Under the pieces are notes generated by a model. It saw only the letters and a program-made list of their open reading frames with translations, ran no database searches and had not been told where the DNA came from. A DNA stretch of 64,000 nucleotides from a bacterium (GTDB lineage: Bacteria > SAR324 > XYD2-FULL-50-16): contig JAHJTV010000103.1 of assembly GCA_018829445.1 (NCBI GenBank), positions 1 through 64,000 of the forward strand, written 5' to 3'. The translations under genes and the position numbers were made by a program. This document shows, in pieces, positions 6,932-19,972 of this stretch; positions within the stretch are counted from its first letter, which is position 1, and each line of letters starts with the position of its first letter.

Positions 6932-9571
6932 TTATTGGTTAGGAGACTGTCCTGTTTTCACTTTGTCAGCGAGAGTCTTCTTCAATACGTATTGGAGTTT
7001 TGAAATGGCGTCTATGATTAATTTGGACTGAATCTCATTAACATCAAATTCAGTCTGGATAGCGCTGACCTGTTTGAGCCGCGCCTGATAGCCAAATGCT
7101 ATATCCACCAGTTTTTGAAAATGCTGCTCAACAATCTGCGAAACGCCAAGGGCTAATTCCAGGGTTTGATGAGTCAATAACTTCTGTTCAGGGTTCAACA
7201 TCTCTTTTAATCGAATATCTCCACCCTCATCGGTCAGTTCATAGCCGTTTTCCGGAAGTGTAACTCTTTTGTCCTCAAACAATGAACCAATCTCCTCCTT
7301 AATCTCAATAAAAACCGACCTGGGGGTCTCAATTTTTACTTTCTCTGCAAATTCATCAGCATATACCTTAGAGACAATTTCGCTTTGTATAAACCTCCAG
7401 AGAGTATAAGCTTTGTTACCCTGCTCTTCGACACTTAAGTTTGGAAAATCCTGCTTGGTCTGTTTTACGATATCGTTGTACAGCTGTTTGGAAAGCTTTT
7501 CGGAACTGATGGATTGTCGTTTTTCCAGTGAGATGCCCAGGTTTTCATAGATCAGTTTTAAGATCCGGCTATACTGCATTTCTTGAATCTTATTCTGGTT
7601 GCCTTCAAACTCCCGGACTTTTTTCTCCGTTACCACAACTTCGATCACCTGGGAGTATTTTTTGATGAGGGTGTCCCGCAGTTCCGAAACCATGGTTATA
7701 CTCATCAGGTTTTTATTGATCATCCACTGCAACAGAGGCAGATACACCCTTTCATACTCTTCCGGAATGGGTTCACTGTTGTACAACCACGGTATTCTTC
7801 TTTTGGGAATAACAAAAATGATAAACATGAAGTCTGGAGGCTGATCCGGCTTTTTCTTGGGCATGCAAAGGGACCATTCCTCAACTTCTTCCTTCTTTTC
7901 TTCATCTTGATTTTGCGCCCAGGAATTGCCACCAATCAGGGTTCCCGGTTTGATCTGTCCAAAGCTTTTTTTGCCTTTTCTCAGCGTTATCCCTTCGGAT
8001 ATGGGCATCCAGTAATGGGTAGTCAGCTGGCTTTCGGGAATGATATCTTCTGCCCCCCCCTGGCAAATGAAGAACTGGTCCTGCACCAACTCTTCGGGAA
8101 ACCCAGCAGGCTTCAACGCCAGCATATCCAGAACGCTTTTAAATGACTTAACGAGATTTTTTTTAAGCTGGTCGGAAGCACAGGTTTTGACGATATCGGT
8201 TAATAACGGCACCTTTGATTCGGCAAATCTGATAACACCTGCGTAGGTGTAAGTATGTCCAACAATACGACTGTTATAGGCTTTAAAACCCTGGTTAAAA
8301 ACTGTCACTACTTCATCCAGAGAATTCCTGAGTTTATCCTCCTCTGTTTCCTCCTCCTTGCTGACAATAGCCAGTTTTCTCACCTTTTCCAGGAACATCT
8401 GCATCCTGGAAACAGAAGCGTTAAACTCATTTTCACAAGTGGCAGACAGTTGGGCTGTCTGTTGTGCAACCTGGGACAAAATGCGATTGGGGTTTTTTAG
8501 CCGGAACATCTCGTTTAGCGTTTTTAGATATGCTTCCAGGTTAAATTCGTTTTCCGCTTTTTTATTGCTGAAAAAAATGCTGGCTTTCAATTTATCAGGA
8601 TCGTATATTTCCTCGCGCGGCTGGACCTTCTTGAACATGAACTTGCGCTGAATGGATACCAGAAGAGTATGCATTCGCATTTGATAGATCCTGGGATTAA
8701 ACAGTTCGATCTCACCTATATTAATCGGCAGCTGATCATTGGGTAGAACTCTGATCAGCAGTTCTGCCGTTGTCTCCAACCATCTTTTCCAGATCATCTG
8801 CTTCTGATAGGTAAAAGCCTGATCCGTTCCTTTGAACTTTGTCCTGGGCAGCTTCCTGTCCAGAATCGTCTTCAGAATGTCTATCAAGGTCTTGGTGCTG
8901 TACTGAACATTATTCGGCCAGGAGAATTTGTGGGCAGATTGCAGGTATTGATGAATGACCTGCCAGATTTTCGGTTCCCATTTCTTATCCTCCTGCTTGT
9001 TTAGAGAACCAGTTATTAGCTGTATGTTCAATAGTTTCAGCTGCTTGTTTACCTCATCCCATAACTTCTTTTGAACCTCGCTGTATTTAAACAAGCGATT
9101 CTGAATCTCCAGAAAGAGATTGTAATAGATCTGCTTCTCCTGTTCAAAACTGGCATCCTCTATCTCACTGATTTTAAAATCCCGCAAGAACTGGCCCATG
9201 GGGATCTTAATCACCAGTGATTGTCCGCCTTCCGCAATGCCAATCGTGGCGTTTCGGGTGGAGTTTCGGTCTATAATGGCTTTGTCTCCAAACAAAGCAG
9301 GTCCATCCATTTTAACAATCACTTTTCCAAAAACAATTACATCGGCTAAGTGATTACATAACAGGAAAAGATCTTTGCCCTGTTCACCCTGCGTAATGAT
9401 CTTAAAACCCGGATTAAAAAATCCAAACTCCAGGGTCTGCAGTAATCTTTTCCCTAAAATCTCAAGACATATCTTAGTTAACGGGTAGGATTTAAGCAGG
9501 GTTTCCGATGCCTGTACTACCTCTGATCCGAATGATGATATCTTATAATAAATATTGTTTTGAAATGCCAT
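6932..9571 (-). CDS. Large protein with N-terminal cyclic-nucleotide-binding domain (879 aa)
   Basis: Residues about 50-130 form a cyclic nucleotide-binding (CAP effector-type) fold: GFKIITQGEQGKDLFLL, then the phosphate-binding cassette FGDKAI at 94-99 and R106-N-A-T. The canonical FGE Glu is Asp here, so ligand binding is uncertain. The remaining 750 residues are mostly helical, rich in charged and Gln residues, and match no family I know; a second possible beta-rich stretch at about 500-610 (PISEGITLRKGKKSFGQIKPGTLIGG) could be a degenerate second cNMP-like domain. There is no DNA-binding helix-turn-helix and no membrane segment. It forms a two-gene unit with the gene at 6024. It could be a large cytoplasmic sensor or scaffold. 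Confidence 0.75.
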   Translation of the reverse strand: MAFQNNIYYKISSFGSEVVQASETLLKSYPLTKICLEILGKRLLQTLEFGFFNPGFKIITQGEQGKDLFLLCNHLADVIVFGKVIVKMDGPALFGDKAIIDRNSTRNATIGIAEGGQSLVIKIPMGQFLRDFKISEIEDASFEQEKQIYYNLFLEIQNRLFKYSEVQKKLWDEVNKQLKLLNIQLITGSLNKQEDKKWEPKIWQVIHQYLQSAHKFSWPNNVQYSTKTLIDILKTILDRKLPRTKFKGTDQAFTYQKQMIWKRWLETTAELLIRVLPNDQLPINIGEIELFNPRIYQMRMHTLLVSIQRKFMFKKVQPREEIYDPDKLKASIFFSNKKAENEFNLEAYLKTLNEMFRLKNPNRILSQVAQQTAQLSATCENEFNASVSRMQMFLEKVRKLAIVSKEEETEEDKLRNSLDEVVTVFNQGFKAYNSRIVGHTYTYAGVIRFAESKVPLLTDIVKTCASDQLKKNLVKSFKSVLDMLALKPAGFPEELVQDQFFICQGGAEDIIPESQLTTHYWMPISEGITLRKGKKSFGQIKPGTLIGGNSWAQNQDEEKKEEVEEWSLCMPKKKPDQPPDFMFIIFVIPKRRIPWLYNSEPIPEEYERVYLPLLQWMINKNLMSITMVSELRDTLIKKYSQVIEVVVTEKKVREFEGNQNKIQEMQYSRILKLIYENLGISLEKRQSISSEKLSKQLYNDIVKQTKQDFPNLSVEEQGNKAYTLWRFIQSEIVSKVYADEFAEKVKIETPRSVFIEIKEEIGSLFEDKRVTLPENGYELTDEGGDIRLKEMLNPEQKLLTHQTLELALGVSQIVEQHFQKLVDIAFGYQARLKQVSAIQTEFDVNEIQSKLIIDAISKLQYVLKKTLADKVKTGQSPNQ

Positions 9572-11687: not shown

Positions 11688-12791
11688 ATGACTATTCAAA
11701 AAATATTTGAAAAGTATATTAGTCAGATAGATATCATTATTGCGACGACGTGCAGAAAGAAAAATATTACCGGAGTACTGGCCGGAGATTTTGGGTCTTA
11801 TGTTTACGAAAAACTGCTGGAGAACAATGGAAAGCGATTATTGGATTTTCAGGGCGATTATGGTGCTTCCTGGGGAGGTTACCTCTCCATCGTTATAACC
11901 CGTTTAGCGATAGATTTCACTAAAAAGCACTGGGGAAGATGGGAAAACTCAACCGCGGCAAGAATGCTGGGTGAAGCTTCAATGAGGTTTGAAGCGCTTA
12001 TCTATCGGGATAAGTATTCTTTTTCCGAGGCTTCCCAAACGATGCTGGATAATCCGAGTTATAGAGTTTTCTACCGGATTTCAATCAAAGAGCTCACCAC
12101 ACTATCAAGCGTTCTAGAAAAACCGATTCTAAAAAAACTGGAGGAGATTGCAAAAGTAACCCTTTATAACAGGGTTGAGTTTCTGGCCATCCTTGAGGAA
12201 GTGCTGAATGATGAGGAGATTAAGAGGGTAAAAAACCATCTTGGTGATTTTGAAGTCCTGTTGAGTATTCAGCTTCTGGAAGAATGGGATCTGCTTTTTC
12301 AGGGCAGGCTTCTACCTCTTCGTCCGGTTCCCGTGAACATAGGAATATATAAGGATGAGGATCATGATGACGAACTTGACGTTCTTGAGAATATCGAGGA
12401 CGGTTCAAAGCAGGGGCCTTTGGAGCAATTATTAGACAAGGAGATGAAATCCCAATTAGAATCAAAAATTGGAGATTTGATGGAAGACATTGGGGATAGG
12501 GATTGGATGATATTGATATTCTATCTGGTTGACAACCTGAGAATCTCTGAAATAGCCCGAATCATGGATGACGAAACAACTTACACGGCCAGTAAGAAGA
12601 GAGAAAAAATACCGGTTTCCTCCAAAAGCTGGAAATATGTCAATAGACGCATACAGTTTTTTACGGATCAATTGAAGACCAGTATTGAAATGATGAATAT
12701 CGATCGTGAAGATTGGGAAGCAGTCGCGCAGTATTGTTTGTATTTGATATCAAAAAAATTACAAAAAAAGAAACTTCCGTCGTCGATCTAA
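11688..12791 (+). CDS. Divergent sigma-70 family RNA polymerase sigma factor
   Basis: A 367-residue protein with a region 2-like segment (FGSYVYEKLLENNGKRLLDF, then YLSIVITRLAIDFTKKHWGRW). It is followed by the block WENSTAARMLG...FEALIYRDKYSFSEA, which I recall from a large-bodied class of ECF-like sigma factors, and a region 4-like helical part near 265-335 (LMEDIGDRDWMILIFYLVDNLRISEIARIM). Sigma factors direct RNA polymerase to specific promoters. It is about twice the length of a usual ECF factor. It is followed after 82 bp by a zinc-finger anti-sigma-like gene in the same direction, which supports the call. The start is the first ATG; no strong ribosome site is visible. Confidence 0.7.
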   Translation: MTIQKIFEKYISQIDIIIATTCRKKNITGVLAGDFGSYVYEKLLENNGKRLLDFQGDYGASWGGYLSIVITRLAIDFTKKHWGRWENSTAARMLGEASMRFEALIYRDKYSFSEASQTMLDNPSYRVFYRISIKELTTLSSVLEKPILKKLEEIAKVTLYNRVEFLAILEEVLNDEEIKRVKNHLGDFEVLLSIQLLEEWDLLFQGRLLPLRPVPVNIGIYKDEDHDDELDVLENIEDGSKQGPLEQLLDKEMKSQLESKIGDLMEDIGDRDWMILIFYLVDNLRISEIARIMDDETTYTASKKREKIPVSSKSWKYVNRRIQFFTDQLKTSIEMMNIDREDWEAVAQYCLYLISKKLQKKKLPSSI

Positions 12792-12873
12792 CTAAGTATG
12801 TATATTAAATCCAATCAAATCCACGAAAATCGTAAGACTTATGCTCCTAATACGTTAACTGTAAGATATTACC

Positions 12874-13839
12874 ATGCAATCTAATAACAGAGATCACCAG
12901 ATTGATTGCCCTGATGCGCAAGAACTTACCGCGTTCGTTGAGGGGAAGCTAAATTTACAGCAACAATCCAGGATTCTGCAGCATATCAGGACATGTAGTG
13001 ACTGTCATCAATTGGCTGTAGATGTGGTAAATATAAAGCGGGATCTTCCCGATAGTATTCTTAATATGGAAGCTGATCATCTGAATCAACGTCCTATCAC
13101 CAAGGTGCAGAATAGAATTAAACCTGCCTGGATGAATAGAATTCGAGGATTCAGGGCGGCAACCTTCGCGTTGCCTTTTGCTGCCGTATTTTTGTTTATT
13201 ACCCTGTTATCGCCGGAATCGGATTGGTCATCCGAACAGATTCTCCATCCTTTAAAAAAGAAAGCAGAGATTCAAAAAATCATTCAATCTATCACATTGG
13301 ATAACACCCCATCGGTTGCATTGAGTTTCAGCAATGGAACAACAAACCAGAAAATGGCGTTTAAGGCTGGAATTCTGCTAAGTCGTTTAGAGATCTGCCG
13401 GAAGGCAAAGGATTATAAGACAGGTAAACATCTTTCAGAAAACCTGGTCAATCTTTTAAACAGTGTTTCTATTGAGAGTCCTTCCAAAAATCTGATTGAC
13501 GAAATTGCAGCAAACAGCTCTCAACTGAACAGTGAGGATCAGCTAACAGCGGTCATCAAATCTACTGAAAGAATTTTCCTGGAGACGCCCATTGATTATT
13601 ATTTAAGACTAGGTTTGGTTGTTGAAACTGCAAAAGCATTCTCCTTGATTGGTAAATCGGAAATTTTCGATAAAGACTATTTTGTGTTCATTGTAACCCA
13701 ACCGGATTTTCAAAATCTCCCCCCTGGTGTAATCCGCAGATTAAAAGAGGTTAACGCATTACTGGCCAATAATTCTATTGCACGAGATTCAGAAATCATA
13801 TACAACCTCTTACAAGAAACAGAAGATATTTTGTTATAA
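12874..13839 (+). CDS. Zinc-finger (zf-HC2-type) membrane anti-sigma-like protein
   Basis: A 321-residue protein. Residues 12-44 carry Cys12, His37, Cys41 and Cys44 (CPDAQELTAF...HIRTCSDC), the zinc-binding anti-sigma domain that grips a cognate sigma factor in the cytoplasm. A basic stretch precedes one hydrophobic segment at about 92-112 (ATFALPFAAVFLFITLL), leaving about 210 residues on the other side of the membrane as a sensor of unknown type. The gene lies between the sigma-like gene and the exported protease gene, so it most likely holds the sigma factor inactive until an envelope signal arrives. The partner relationship is inferred from order and domain type. Confidence 0.78.
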   Translation: MQSNNRDHQIDCPDAQELTAFVEGKLNLQQQSRILQHIRTCSDCHQLAVDVVNIKRDLPDSILNMEADHLNQRPITKVQNRIKPAWMNRIRGFRAATFALPFAAVFLFITLLSPESDWSSEQILHPLKKKAEIQKIIQSITLDNTPSVALSFSNGTTNQKMAFKAGILLSRLEICRKAKDYKTGKHLSENLVNLLNSVSIESPSKNLIDEIAANSSQLNSEDQLTAVIKSTERIFLETPIDYYLRLGLVVETAKAFSLIGKSEIFDKDYFVFIVTQPDFQNLPPGVIRRLKEVNALLANNSIARDSEIIYNLLQETEDILL

Positions 13840-13918
13840 AATCAACGAATCATTGCCGTCTTTCTTGTAAAATCCTCCTTCCAAATTTGTATCTAAAGCT
13901 CGATGGATTTTTTATAGG

Positions 13919-16480
13919 ATGGGTCAACTTTTGAACTTTAAATGGTTTCAAGCTGTATGCACCCTATATATCGTAGTTTTACTATTTCCTTTCATTTTGA
14001 ATGCTGCAACAGATGAAAAAGGAACCGGTGAATTCTACATAAGGGAATACGGAATCCTCAGTTCAAACCAGAATCCAACGGTTGAGCAAGCCCAGCTTGT
14101 CTTCAGGCGACTGCTAAAATCCGCCAACGCCAAGCAGAATAATCAATATCGGCTTATTATTCTTCCCAAAAGTGCAGCAAACTGGTTAAATTGGGCGATG
14201 TGCCTGCCCGATGGGAGTGTGATCCTGGTTGAAAATATCCTGGATCTGTGTTTTGAGAATCACACGAAAATAACCGAAAAAGGGAGGGCACGGCTCGCGT
14301 TTATACTTGCCCATGAGATTTCTCATCTGCTTGATAATCATCATACCCATCTCAATCGCGGAACTATCCTGCATTTTCAAGAGGGTAGTCAGTCAAATAT
14401 TGAAGCGAATATTCGAAAAATTGAATCCCAGGCCGATTATTCCGGCTTAATTCTCATGACCCTGGCAGATTATGAACCGCGGTTCTTAATAGATCAATCC
14501 AATTTCTTTCAGGAATATTTAACAAAAGTAAGGTCTAATAACAATTTTGATGATCATTTTCCGCCGCAAAAAAGAAAAGATAATCTCAAAGAAAACCTTG
14601 AACCCCTGATTGATGAACTACCCCTCTTTGCAAGTGGGGTCCGTTACTTGAAAAAACAGGAATATGGCCCGGCTATCGAGAGTTTTACACAATTTGCAGA
14701 GATGTTTCCCGGCAGAGAGGTCTATAATAACATTGGCCTCTCCTACTATCAAATGGCTTTGAAGGATCAATCCAAGATCAATCCAAAAACACTGTTTCGT
14801 TTCATGCTGTCAACCGTGGTTGACAGCAATACGCTCGCTATCAAACTGGCTCCGGACGATCTCGGAGCTCCCAGGAGTCTAAAACAACAATTTAAAAAAA
14901 ATCTAGAAAAATCGAAAGAAAGCCTGAAGGTTGCCATCCACAAGGACCCAGACTATGCTCCTGCAAAAATAAACCTGTCATCTGTTTACATTACAGAACA
15001 ACGGTTTGAGGAAGCCTCCAAACTTGTGGATGAAGTGCTCCGACAACAGCCAGCGAATTCCGATGCCATTAACAATAAAGCCGTTGCCTTGTACCTGTCC
15101 AATCCTGAAAAAAACGCAGCAAAAGCGTTAACACTTCTGAATAATGTGGAGGAGATGCCCATGGGTTACTCCTTCCGCTATTCAAATTACAACAAATCCA
15201 GAATTCGCTTTGAGCAACTGGATTGTCTTCTGAACAGCAACCAAACCCTGGATATGGAATGCCTGTCAATTGCCAGAAAATCATGGAATCCCTTTCTGAG
15301 CATTGAAGACAATACGCATTATGCCCGACTGGTGAAATCGGAACTTGGTGGTAATAAACAAAAACAGACGAGGTTGCCGGAAAAAAATCGGGTGGCGCTG
15401 GTATTTGGAAACAGTTCCTATAAAAAAGCGCCGCTGCTTAATCCGTTAAATGACGCCAGTGCAATGAAAGATACACTGGAAGATTTGGGCTTTAAAGTCG
15501 TGCTGGGCCTGGATCTTACCCGTCAGGAGATGCTCAGGGAAATCAAACTGTTTGAAAAATTATTGACCACAGACAGCACCGGCTTGATCTACTATTCCGG
15601 GCATGGGTTACAGGTCAAGGGCGAGAACTTTCTGCTGCCAATCGGTGTTGAATCCGAGACGATTAGTTTTGATCTTCGTCCGGAAAGGCTGGAGGAAACA
15701 ATTAGAGAAGTAGCCATTAGTCTGAATACCGTACTGGAGATCCTGGCAAGAGTTGACAATGTGCAGAATATCATAATCCTGGATGCCTGCAGAGATAACC
15801 CCCTGCCAGGGATCAGCAGCGAATTCCAGGGCTTTGATGAAATGAATGCACCTCCCCGAACCTATATTGCCTATTCCACCTCTCCCGGTAAAGTTGCATG
15901 GGACGGCTTGGATGGTAATTATGGGGTCTTTACCCGTTCCCTGCTTAATCATATCAAACGCCCCAACGTAGATGTTAAGGATCTTTTTCAAATCGTTCGC
16001 AAGGAAGTGGCAGGCAAAACAGGTGATTACCAAATCACCTGGGATGTTTCCACTCTCGATGAGCAATACTATTTTAATCCGCCAAAACCCCAGGACTGGA
16101 CCTGGCATATTACTGCCGGGGTTTTAATGACGGTTGCTGCCTGGCAATCGAGAGAAGAAGCAAAAAAATATCGTGAACTGAATGAAGAAAACGACTATCT
16201 GAAGAAACAATACGACGATTCCCTTAATCTGGAAGAATATATCGACATTCGTGAGCGCTATTATATAAACCAGGAAAAAATGAAGACCCATAAAAAGAAT
16301 TACGAACAACTCGATATTATTACAATGGCTGCGTTGGCCTGGGAAGCGTATCTTCTGATCTTTGAGACCTATGACGAAGGTGTGTATGATAGCGCGAAAT
16401 CCATCTCTTCACCCAATGTAGTCTTAATGCCTACTCCCCAATTTAATGCTTTGGGGCTAACTTTACAATGGCAGTGGTAA
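13919..16480 (+). CDS. Exported M48-type peptidase / TPR-like / caspase (C14) fusion protein
   Basis: An 853-residue multidomain protein. Residues 8-28 form a signal peptide or anchor. At about 130 the HEISH zinc motif appears, with ESQAD near 169 supplying the third ligand, as in M48 peptidases. TPR-like helices follow at about 235-430 (YLKKQEYGPAIESFTQF, DPDYAPAKINLSSVYI). A caspase p20-like domain spans about 485-720: RVALVFGNSSYKKAPLLNP, the catalytic His in YYSGHG near 558 and the catalytic Cys in LDACRDNP near 621. The C-terminus has a hydrophobic segment, a coiled coil (about 745-790) and another hydrophobic segment. Two intact protease centres in one exported chain is rare. Its place behind a sigma/anti-sigma pair suggests it senses or executes an envelope-stress response. 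Confidence 0.88.
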   Translation: MGQLLNFKWFQAVCTLYIVVLLFPFILNAATDEKGTGEFYIREYGILSSNQNPTVEQAQLVFRRLLKSANAKQNNQYRLIILPKSAANWLNWAMCLPDGSVILVENILDLCFENHTKITEKGRARLAFILAHEISHLLDNHHTHLNRGTILHFQEGSQSNIEANIRKIESQADYSGLILMTLADYEPRFLIDQSNFFQEYLTKVRSNNNFDDHFPPQKRKDNLKENLEPLIDELPLFASGVRYLKKQEYGPAIESFTQFAEMFPGREVYNNIGLSYYQMALKDQSKINPKTLFRFMLSTVVDSNTLAIKLAPDDLGAPRSLKQQFKKNLEKSKESLKVAIHKDPDYAPAKINLSSVYITEQRFEEASKLVDEVLRQQPANSDAINNKAVALYLSNPEKNAAKALTLLNNVEEMPMGYSFRYSNYNKSRIRFEQLDCLLNSNQTLDMECLSIARKSWNPFLSIEDNTHYARLVKSELGGNKQKQTRLPEKNRVALVFGNSSYKKAPLLNPLNDASAMKDTLEDLGFKVVLGLDLTRQEMLREIKLFEKLLTTDSTGLIYYSGHGLQVKGENFLLPIGVESETISFDLRPERLEETIREVAISLNTVLEILARVDNVQNIIILDACRDNPLPGISSEFQGFDEMNAPPRTYIAYSTSPGKVAWDGLDGNYGVFTRSLLNHIKRPNVDVKDLFQIVRKEVAGKTGDYQITWDVSTLDEQYYFNPPKPQDWTWHITAGVLMTVAAWQSREEAKKYRELNEENDYLKKQYDDSLNLEEYIDIRERYYINQEKMKTHKKNYEQLDIITMAALAWEAYLLIFETYDEGVYDSAKSISSPNVVLMPTPQFNALGLTLQWQW

Positions 16481-17436
16481 GAATCTTGTCCCTATTAAAA
16501 CAGATCTTCAGATGCACGTTTCCCACCCTGGTGATTGTCTGTCTAATTGCCTGCGGATCACTGGAAAACTCTGACCTGCCTTCGGATGCGGAAGAGGAAG
16601 ATCTTGGAGACCGCACCAAGGTGACCGAGATAAACTTCGCTGATGCGGCCCTGGAAAAATGTATTCAGCAATACAGTGTTACCTATGCCTTCGAACTGCA
16701 AACCCTGGCCTGCAATCAGAAAGGAATTGTCAATATCTCCGGGTTGGAACATTTCACCGAATTGGTTCACCTGGAACTGGATGACAATTCCATTGAAGAT
16801 ATCAGCCCCATCAGTGGTTTAAAAAAACTGACGGCATTATACCTGAATAACAATCATATAACCGATATTGGCCCTGTCAGCGAATTGGTGAATGTAATCA
16901 ATTTAGACCTCAATCAAAATGAGATAGAAGATATTAGTTTTTTAATAAAACTTAAAAATATAAGCTACTTGGGTCTTTTTAGGAATAATATCGTAGATAT
17001 CTCATCCCTGGCCGGTTTAACCAAAATGATAAGCGTAAATATTGGAGATAACAATATCGTTGACGTTTCACCATTGGAAGGATTGCCAGAACTCAATTAT
17101 TTATATCTCAGCCATAATTCCATAAACAGAGTTGCACCTTTACGCACGCTGACCAACCTGGTTTTCCTTGCTCTGGATAATAACGAAATTACGTCAGCCT
17201 GTTATTTGGATACTCTGACAGAACTTATCGGTTTGCATCTGCATGGAAATGATGTTCAAGATGAGGTATCCTGTTTAGGCACATTGACAAAAATAATGAA
17301 TGTCAACGATCTCCAGATAAATCTTGAAGGCAATTTCAGTTTGCATTGTGCAGAGCTTGATGAACTTGAAGCTTCATACCCTATTCCTGGTACTGGGGAA
17401 GAATGTTATGTGCTACGTCCCGCCACCTGTTTATAG
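16468..17436 (+). CDS. Leucine-rich-repeat lipoprotein (SDS22/internalin-like)
   Basis: A 322-residue protein. The N-terminus is a lipoprotein signal ending in the lipobox LIAC (Cys near 29), followed by an acidic linker. From about residue 85 there are eight tandem 22-residue leucine-rich repeats of the pattern LxxLxLxxNxIxDIxPLxxL, closed by a Cys-containing cap (SCLGTLTK...CAELDELEASYPIPGTGEEC). Such repeats form a curved binding surface. The protein should be anchored in the periplasm or outer membrane. The start overlaps the preceding protease gene by 13 bp, so the two are translationally linked; it may recruit the ligand or substrate for the protease. Confidence 0.88.
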   Translation: MAVVRILSLLKQIFRCTFPTLVIVCLIACGSLENSDLPSDAEEEDLGDRTKVTEINFADAALEKCIQQYSVTYAFELQTLACNQKGIVNISGLEHFTELVHLELDDNSIEDISPISGLKKLTALYLNNNHITDIGPVSELVNVINLDLNQNEIEDISFLIKLKNISYLGLFRNNIVDISSLAGLTKMISVNIGDNNIVDVSPLEGLPELNYLYLSHNSINRVAPLRTLTNLVFLALDNNEITSACYLDTLTELIGLHLHGNDVQDEVSCLGTLTKIMNVNDLQINLEGNFSLHCAELDELEASYPIPGTGEECYVLRPATCL

Positions 17437-17639: not shown

Positions 17640-17828
17640 ATGAAAAAATTAGTTTTGTTTATAAGCACTGCAATTTTGATGTTGAGTCTAGGAAGCGTTC
17701 AGGCTTCAGAGAATAGTGAAGCTATTAATATCTATGTGAATTACAATATTATTACTGCAGAAATCCAGTTTGTTGATCAGGTCTATCCCTGCCAATACAG
17801 CTGGCAGATCCCACCATCTTGCAGATAA
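17640..17828 (+). CDS. Small secreted peptide (62 aa) with signal peptide and two cysteines
   Basis: A Shine-Dalgarno AAGGGAG lies about 7 nt before the ATG. The first 23 residues are a textbook Sec signal ending in VQASE, leaving a mature peptide of about 39 residues. The C-terminal 12 residues hold two Cys (PCQYSWQIPPSC) that could form a disulfide in the periplasm. No family is recognised. It lies between the LRR lipoprotein and the kinase-like gene and may be a signal or accessory peptide of this locus; that is inference from position only. Confidence 0.65.
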   Translation: MKKLVLFISTAILMLSLGSVQASENSEAINIYVNYNIITAEIQFVDQVYPCQYSWQIPPSCR

Positions 17829-17902: not shown

Positions 17903-19075
17903 GTGATGAAGATAAAAGATCTCGTCCGAACCGATTATGAGGTAGTTTCAGCACAAATCAAAATCTCTGAGATTTCGGAGCGATTGGCAGAGCTTTACTA
18001 TCTTGTAGTCAAAGACGAGGGTGAGTATGTTGGGATCTTATCTTCATCGCAATTTCCCAACCAGGGCGATCTTCGAGTAGCTGATTGTCTGGTCAGTACA
18101 CCAGTCATCGATTATGAATCGGATTTGGAAGAGATTAACGATCAGCTGCAAGGCTGCAAGCAGAACGCCTTGCCTGTATTCGCTCACGGAATCTTCAAAG
18201 GTGTTCTTCTTCAAAGTGATATTCTGAAGTTCATGGTAAATCACACCGGCAAGATGGGGCAGAAGATTTTTTCAGTCGAAGACAACCAAGCAGATTACTC
18301 TAAAGGTCTGGAAGGAGAGTTGGAAAAATCGCAGGGACTTTTAGACACTTATTCCCAGTACAGTCAAATCATAGAAAAGGTTCTCAAGGCTAAATCCGAT
18401 CTGTTAACCGACGTAAGCCAGGAACTCAGAAATCATCTTCACATCATTCTCAGCTACGTTGAGCAAGGTCTTAAGCAATCCAGCCCCTTGTCCCAGGAAA
18501 AATTCTATCGTTATTTTACCCGAATTCACGATAACAGTGAGAAAATGCTGAATCTGGTAACTGATCTTCTTGATCTGTCAAAACTGGATGCCGGAAAATC
18601 AGACTATAAACTTCAATCGCATAGTCTTTCCGATCTGATTGATGCTGTACTGGCTGAATACAATCCCCTGTTTACCTCCAAAAAGATATCCGTAGATTTT
18701 CTGAGACCGACCTGGTCGGATGTTATTTTGATGGATAAAAACAGGATTTCTCAGGTGATTCAAAGTTTTATTTCTAACGCATATAAGTTTTCTCAGGAAA
18801 ACAACAGAATTCGTATTGAGCTTAAACATCTGGAAAATGAGATATCACTTTCAATTACCGACTGGGGATGCGGAATTTCCCAGGAGGAGTTTGATACTCT
18901 GTTTGAAAAATATAACAGGACCAGCCTGGCAAGACAGGGAATAAAAGGCTCCGGCTTAGGGCTTCCCATAGCCTATAAAATAGTGAGCGATCATAAGGGT
19001 AAAATCTCTGCAAAAGCAAACCCTGAAGGAGGAGCCATCTTCTCCTTTACCCTCCCCATTTCCAGTACAACTTAA
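17903..19075 (+). CDS. CBS-domain histidine-kinase-like protein lacking the H-box histidine
   Basis: A 390-residue soluble protein. Residues 1-115 resemble a CBS pair (DLVRTDYEVVS, VADCLVSTPVIDYESDLEEI, ALPVFAHGIFKGVLLQSDI), which usually binds adenosyl ligands. A HisKA-like dimerisation helix spans 160-235, and an HATPase domain spans about 240-388 with Asn292, the D320-x-G-x-G box and GSGLGL at 349-354. The H-box reads VSQELRNHLHII at 171-182: the phospho-accepting His of S-H-E-L-R is Gln173. ATP binding should survive, but canonical autophosphorylation should not. No response regulator is adjacent. The start could be GTG 17903 or ATG 17906; no good ribosome site is seen. Confidence 0.85.
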   Translation: MMKIKDLVRTDYEVVSAQIKISEISERLAELYYLVVKDEGEYVGILSSSQFPNQGDLRVADCLVSTPVIDYESDLEEINDQLQGCKQNALPVFAHGIFKGVLLQSDILKFMVNHTGKMGQKIFSVEDNQADYSKGLEGELEKSQGLLDTYSQYSQIIEKVLKAKSDLLTDVSQELRNHLHIILSYVEQGLKQSSPLSQEKFYRYFTRIHDNSEKMLNLVTDLLDLSKLDAGKSDYKLQSHSLSDLIDAVLAEYNPLFTSKKISVDFLRPTWSDVILMDKNRISQVIQSFISNAYKFSQENNRIRIELKHLENEISLSITDWGCGISQEEFDTLFEKYNRTSLARQGIKGSGLGLPIAYKIVSDHKGKISAKANPEGGAIFSFTLPISSTT

Positions 19076-19327: not shown

Positions 19328-19972
19328 ATGGATAAAGACTATCAATCCTGGCTATGGCAGAAAACGGGTGAAAAGACCGTTAAAAACCTGGAAAAACATG
19401 GTATTAATGCTTGTCTGGTTGAGACTGTAGAGGAAGCGGCACAATATGTGACGGAGATGATCAGCGGTTACCTGAGCTTCGGTTTTGCTGGTTCGGATAC
19501 CACCCGTGAGCTTGGGCTGCCCCAAAAACTGAAAGAATTGGGGAAAACAGTCTATGATCACTGGGAGCCAGGACTTTCAAGTGAGGAGAGCCTGGAAATC
19601 AGGAAAAAACAGTCCCAGGCTGAATGCTTTTTATGTAGCGCCAATGCCATTGCCATGACTGGAGAAATCATCAATGTGGATGGCGTTGGAAATCGAACCA
19701 ATGGGATGTCATTTGGACCGAAAAAAGTGGTGATCATTGCCGGAATGAACAAAGTCACAAAAGATCTGGATTCGGCGTTGAAGAGAGTTCATGAAATCGC
19801 AGCTCCAATGCGCTCCAAAAGCCTTGACATGGATACGCCTTGCGCTAAAACAGGGATCTGTGCTGATTGTAACTCTCCACAGAGGATTTGTCGGATCACC
19901 ACTATTATCCATCGCCAACCTATGCTGACAGATATGTCTGTCGTTCTAATTAAGCAGGCTTTGGGGTTTTAA
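19328..19972 (+). CDS. LUD-domain (LutC/YkgG-like) protein
   Basis: A 214-residue single-domain LUD (formerly DUF162) protein. It shows the FGFAGSDTTRELGLPQ segment, SANAIAMTGEIINVDGVGNR and the terminal Cys motif CAKTGICADCNSPQRICR near 176-193. LUD proteins include LutB/LutC of lactate utilisation, but stand-alone members such as this have no defined role; the four Cys could bind a metal or cluster. A good start is at 19328. No lactate-utilisation partner genes are adjacent, so I do not assign lutC. Confidence 0.85.
   Translation: MDKDYQSWLWQKTGEKTVKNLEKHGINACLVETVEEAAQYVTEMISGYLSFGFAGSDTTRELGLPQKLKELGKTVYDHWEPGLSSEESLEIRKKQSQAECFLCSANAIAMTGEIINVDGVGNRTNGMSFGPKKVVIIAGMNKVTKDLDSALKRVHEIAAPMRSKSLDMDTPCAKTGICADCNSPQRICRITTIIHRQPMLTDMSVVLIKQALGF

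Follow-up and report, generated by a model that had tools for sequence, protein, structure and literature searches.

A histidine kinase that carries glutamine where its H-box should hold the phospho-accepting histidine raises the question of whether the substitution defines a dedicated switch working without phosphotransfer, or marks a conventional kinase that has changed within one lineage. The answer depends on which catalytic residues have been altered, on whether relatives share the change, and on how the protein compares with known systems that signal without this histidine.

Architecture and altered catalytic residues

The window analysed here, a 64,000-nucleotide stretch of a SAR324 contig (JAHJTV010000103.1), encodes the kinase at 17903–19075 on the forward strand, where an intact open frame runs for 390 codons from a GTG at 17903. 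Translation probably begins instead at the ATG at 17906 (389 residues, with the glutamine then at position 172), since the orthologue described below begins MKI, the same as there; residues are numbered here from the GTG. The reading frame, Pfam, the start and alignment of the orthologue and an AlphaFold2 model (mean pLDDT 79.9) describe a soluble, cytoplasmic CBS-CBS-HisKA-HATPase_c protein that we assign as a probable orphan pseudo-histidine kinase. The CBS pair, a Bateman module at residues about 4–115 (17912–18250, forward strand), matches Pfam CBS in two stretches at 34.4 bits and is folded in the model as two CBS-like β/α units, and both lines of evidence support its presence as the likely input. 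HisKA (residues 163–231, 46.8 bits, E 3e-12) and HATPase_c (residues 278–386, 18734–19060 on the forward strand, 82.1 bits, E 5e-23) follow in the canonical order, both over Pfam cut-offs, and in the predicted structure the CBS pair is followed by an extended DHp hairpin and a CA domain, both of normal fold.

The H-box (18416–18439, forward strand) reads SQELRNHL, where the usual HisKA H-box is SHE[LI]R[TN]P[LM]. Codon 173, within DVSQELRNHLHIIL, is CAG and codon 178 is CAT, so that the protein has Gln173 where the phospho-accepting His is expected and His178 at the position of the H-box Pro. In an alignment of 74 cores, comprising HisKA kinases from the same genome and the orthologue, the phospho-acceptor position is His in all but this one (73/74), the Pro position is likewise occupied by Pro in 73/74 with His in this kinase alone, and the first N-box position is Asn in 69/74 and Ser here (Ser288, codon 18764–18766). 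The same alignment shows that both fixed residues of the ExxN motif, Glu174 and Asn177, are retained, and a survey of conserved columns finds N292, D320, G322, G324, F334, G351, G353 and G377 unchanged. As such, the original prediction was right that Gln stands in for His in an intact frame and that no phosphotransfer proceeds from this H-box, which has no His at the site; its description of the ATPase boxes as intact holds for the D and G boxes and Asn292 but not for the first N-box Asn (N288S). ATP binding is plausible from the retained residues, with an altered N-box. The domains of a canonical HisKA kinase are thus present, while the His, the H-box Pro and the full pair of N-box Asn residues are absent. 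By sequence, this combination places the protein among the pseudo-histidine kinases, a class defined by a HisKA fold without the residues for a kinase function, notably the His (PMC12632262).

A syntenic orthologue retains the histidine

The sole full-length orthologue found belongs to the SAR324 metagenome-assembled genome PL25a_bin.53 (G002; JANQLH010000095.1), of the same genus. It is 43% identical overall, with 59% identity in the DHp, 52% in the CA domain and 30% in the CBS part, where its Pfam score is 26.6 bits against 34.4 bits for the kinase of the window. Its CBS-HisKA-HATPase_c architecture and gene neighbours match those of the kinase, but it has the His and Pro of the H-box, which reads SHEIRNPM, and it keeps the N-box Asn. 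The original prediction had specified beforehand that an orthologue with His at residue 173 would count against it, and the syntenic gene is such an orthologue; the substitution is no conserved design. Among the genomes compared, sequence indicates that only this lineage has lost the His and that the change does not characterise the family, since the syntenic orthologue keeps the residue. A scan of genome contigs with the single sequence found no relative of the kinase, and a scan with two sequences returned the same orthologue and only weak generic kinases. A class-wide search with an N-terminal profile gave no further clear orthologues; it did return a single paralogue from this genome (L039), whose H-box is SHEIRTPM.

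The third genus member (G001) has the same gene order, though its small-peptide and LUD genes are not separated by a kinase, and the rest of its genome yielded nothing homologous to the N-terminal half. The kinase is therefore dispensable in that species, as the gene is absent there. All three genus members share one gene order: sigma-like, zf-HC2-like, M48/TPR/caspase and LRR proteins, one or more small secreted peptides, the kinase where present, and a LUD-domain protein. In the window, the upstream cluster of sigma-like, zf-HC2-like, M48/TPR/caspase and LRR proteins, supported by its ORFs, Pfam and the shared order, occupies 11688–17436 on the forward strand; its sigma-like member has no Pfam hit and is named by inference, and the zf-HC2 likeness of the neighbour is weak. 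The LUD-domain gene lies downstream at 19328–19972 (forward strand, Pfam E 5e-47) and is followed, both in the window and in G001, by genes for a GAF-HD-GYP protein and an AMP-binding ligase; the G002 contig stops after the LUD gene. The kinase appears orphan because a Pfam scan of neighbouring genes reveals no receiver domain, and the gene neighbourhood points to no partner. At the G002 locus the 5′ part of the kinase gene also occurs a second time in broken form (L031:7790–7900), nearly identical to the beginning of the intact gene and located between two small-peptide genes, and kinase genes therefore turn over at this locus.

Rarity of the substitution among HisKA kinases

The genome is rich in kinases, with 150 HATPase_c hits scored. 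In a looser survey of genome stretches spanning most of these hits, His is present in 118 of 119 distinct H-boxes and Gln in the remaining one. HisKA domains without His make up 0.9% of those catalogued (722/76,471; PMC12632262), so that about one such case is expected among the 100-plus kinases of the genome; the single instance here is real yet statistically unsurprising. A limited literature search found no published HisKA protein in which a CBS input accompanies a natural change of His to Gln. The protein nonetheless belongs to an established class, the pseudo-histidine kinases, and presents no new mechanism. The paralogue closest to its core is the second core of a 1088-residue protein (L032:1887–5153), in which a kinase core and a receiver domain precede this second core at the C-terminus. 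Elsewhere in the genome some kinases look broken, as three HATPase_c matches contain an internal TGA or TAA stop (G000:C40:126871–127200, C26:40963–41283 and C62:187264–187590).

Comparison with known systems

SpoIIAB and RsbW resemble the kinase in their distantly related GHKL ATPase fold, and Spo0B resembles it in its DHp-like dimer; a Spo0B-like or anti-sigma-like switch had accordingly been proposed for this protein. Spo0B keeps its phospho-accepting His and is without ATPase activity, whereas the kinase has no His at the site, and a Spo0B-like phosphotransferase, which requires a His on its DHp-like dimer, was rejected. An anti-sigma factor of the SpoIIAB/RsbW type was also rejected: the ATPase domain is of the kinase type (HATPase_c, E 5e-23), while the HATPase_c_2 model stays under its cut-off (E 0.065; 13.7 bits against 27.4), and HisKA is present. 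The cluster already carries a separate, weakly zf-HC2-like protein beside the sigma-like protein, which argues against an anti-sigma role for the kinase.

The best PDB matches to the model, identified with Foldseek, include HK853 of Thermotoga (E 3e-19) and DivL of Caulobacter (PDB 4q20; E 2.5e-17). HK853 shares the DHp-CA fold, the ExxN motif and most ATP-box residues, and differs in possessing the phospho-accepting His, the H-box Pro and the first N-box Asn, which is Ser in the kinase. DivL is similar in fold, with HisKA and HATPase_c and a residue other than His at the phospho-acceptor site. In DivL this residue is Tyr550, conserved across alphaproteobacteria, the input is provided by PAS domains, Pro555 is kept, and the partner is DivK~P (PMC4211667); the kinase, in contrast, has Gln, a CBS input, no H-box Pro and a distribution limited to a single lineage. 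Membership of the DivL family was rejected: identity across the aligned fold is about 20%, the residue is Gln rather than Tyr, and the nearest relatives are kinases from genomes of the same class.

Probable role and origin of the altered kinase

We favour, at a probability of about 0.6, the reading that the protein is a lineage-specific orphan pseudo-histidine kinase that has lost autophosphorylation and serves a non-catalytic or phosphatase-type role. The ancestor would have been an orphan HisKA kinase of the cytoplasm with a CBS sensor, a form that the sister species retains in its canonical state. In this species Gln would have replaced the phospho-accepting His, His the H-box Pro and Ser the first N-box Asn, and to judge from these residues and established HisKA chemistry the protein would thereby have lost autophosphorylation and phosphate donation. 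Left over would be a DHp dimer that is regulated by its CBS pair and carries an ATP-binding-like domain; its likeliest surviving role may be to bind or dephosphorylate a response regulator or to form heterodimers with some other kinase among the 100-plus of the genome. Binding of a response regulator would resemble the binding of DivK~P by DivL, which signals without kinase or phosphatase activity by binding the phosphorylated response regulator (PMC4211667). Dephosphorylation is chemically possible, because Glu174 and Asn177 (the HisKA phosphatase position) are kept, and is probably reduced, because the H-box Pro is lost. The precedent is CrdS of Myxococcus, in which H371A abolishes kinase activity while phosphatase activity remains, the half-life of CrdA~P being 2.6 min with the H371A protein and 53.5 min alone; the phosphatase reaction strictly requires N375, the counterpart of Asn177, and both kinase and phosphatase activities fall in P376A, a change at the H-box Pro position (PMC3510030).

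The strongest competitor, to which we give clearly less weight than to a pseudokinase role, is that decay is starting: the kinase would be dispensable in this lineage and its catalytic residues would be drifting ahead of frameshifts and stops, with no function that requires the loss of His. The gene is intact in one sister and missing in the other, kinase-relevant positions 173, 178 and 288 are altered together, and the broken 5′ copy in G002 is consistent with turnover. On the other hand, all 390 codons remain open, the G1, F and G2 boxes and Asn292 are intact, and the CBS pair scores over its cut-off and above that of the orthologue. At otherwise conserved core positions 16 changes fall on this lineage and 8 on that of the orthologue, which fits a relaxed constraint here, though relative-rate tests between the two lineages are not significant (p 0.06–1.0).

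A recent switch under selection, in which H173Q, P178H and N288S would have converted a phosphotransfer kinase into a phosphatase-only or response regulator-sequestering sensor, is an unlikely special case, and selection on the altered form is not demonstrable with one other family sequence only. If true, it would provide a matched kinase and pseudokinase orthologue pair at the same locus, beside a genus-specific secreted peptide. Should selection act on the altered form, this locus and its SAR324 sister would capture the states before and after a natural conversion of kinase to pseudokinase, in a protein whose input is a CBS pair where DivL has PAS domains. Otherwise the gene is one among the roughly 0.9% of HisKA domains without His.

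A consensus error in the metagenome-assembled genome, with a true codon 173 of CAT or CAC, is improbable. The observation comes from a single genome with an estimated contamination of 5.35%, and one base is enough to restore His, but separate substitutions at three conserved sites (codons 173, 178 and 288) would all have to be errors, and the neighbouring ORFs are intact. Least credible of all, and rejected, is a phospho-acceptor moved to His178 or His180: a His is new at the lost Pro position, five residues off, but it would lie about 140 degrees round the helix from position 173, His180 is not compensatory because it is present in the canonical orthologue and common in the canonical paralogues of the genome (RTPMH...), and we know of no case of a phospho-acceptor moved within the H-box.

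A genus-limited secreted peptide beside the kinase

Directly upstream of the kinase, at 17640–17828 on the forward strand, lies a gene for a 62-residue predicted secreted peptide ending YPCQYSWQIPPSCR, with homologues in both other genus members. G002 has three copies of these peptides of about 62 residues (L031:7283–7468, 8110–8298 and 8716–8904) and G001 has one, on the reverse strand of L048 (8486–8677 of the reverse complement). The genes thus occur in one to three copies per genus member, always between the LRR and kinase/LUD genes. No clear match to the family was found elsewhere in the class, and this genus-limited peptide may merit further attention. Its members end in [YWF]PCxxxWQxPPxC, with the core PCxxxWQxPPxC.
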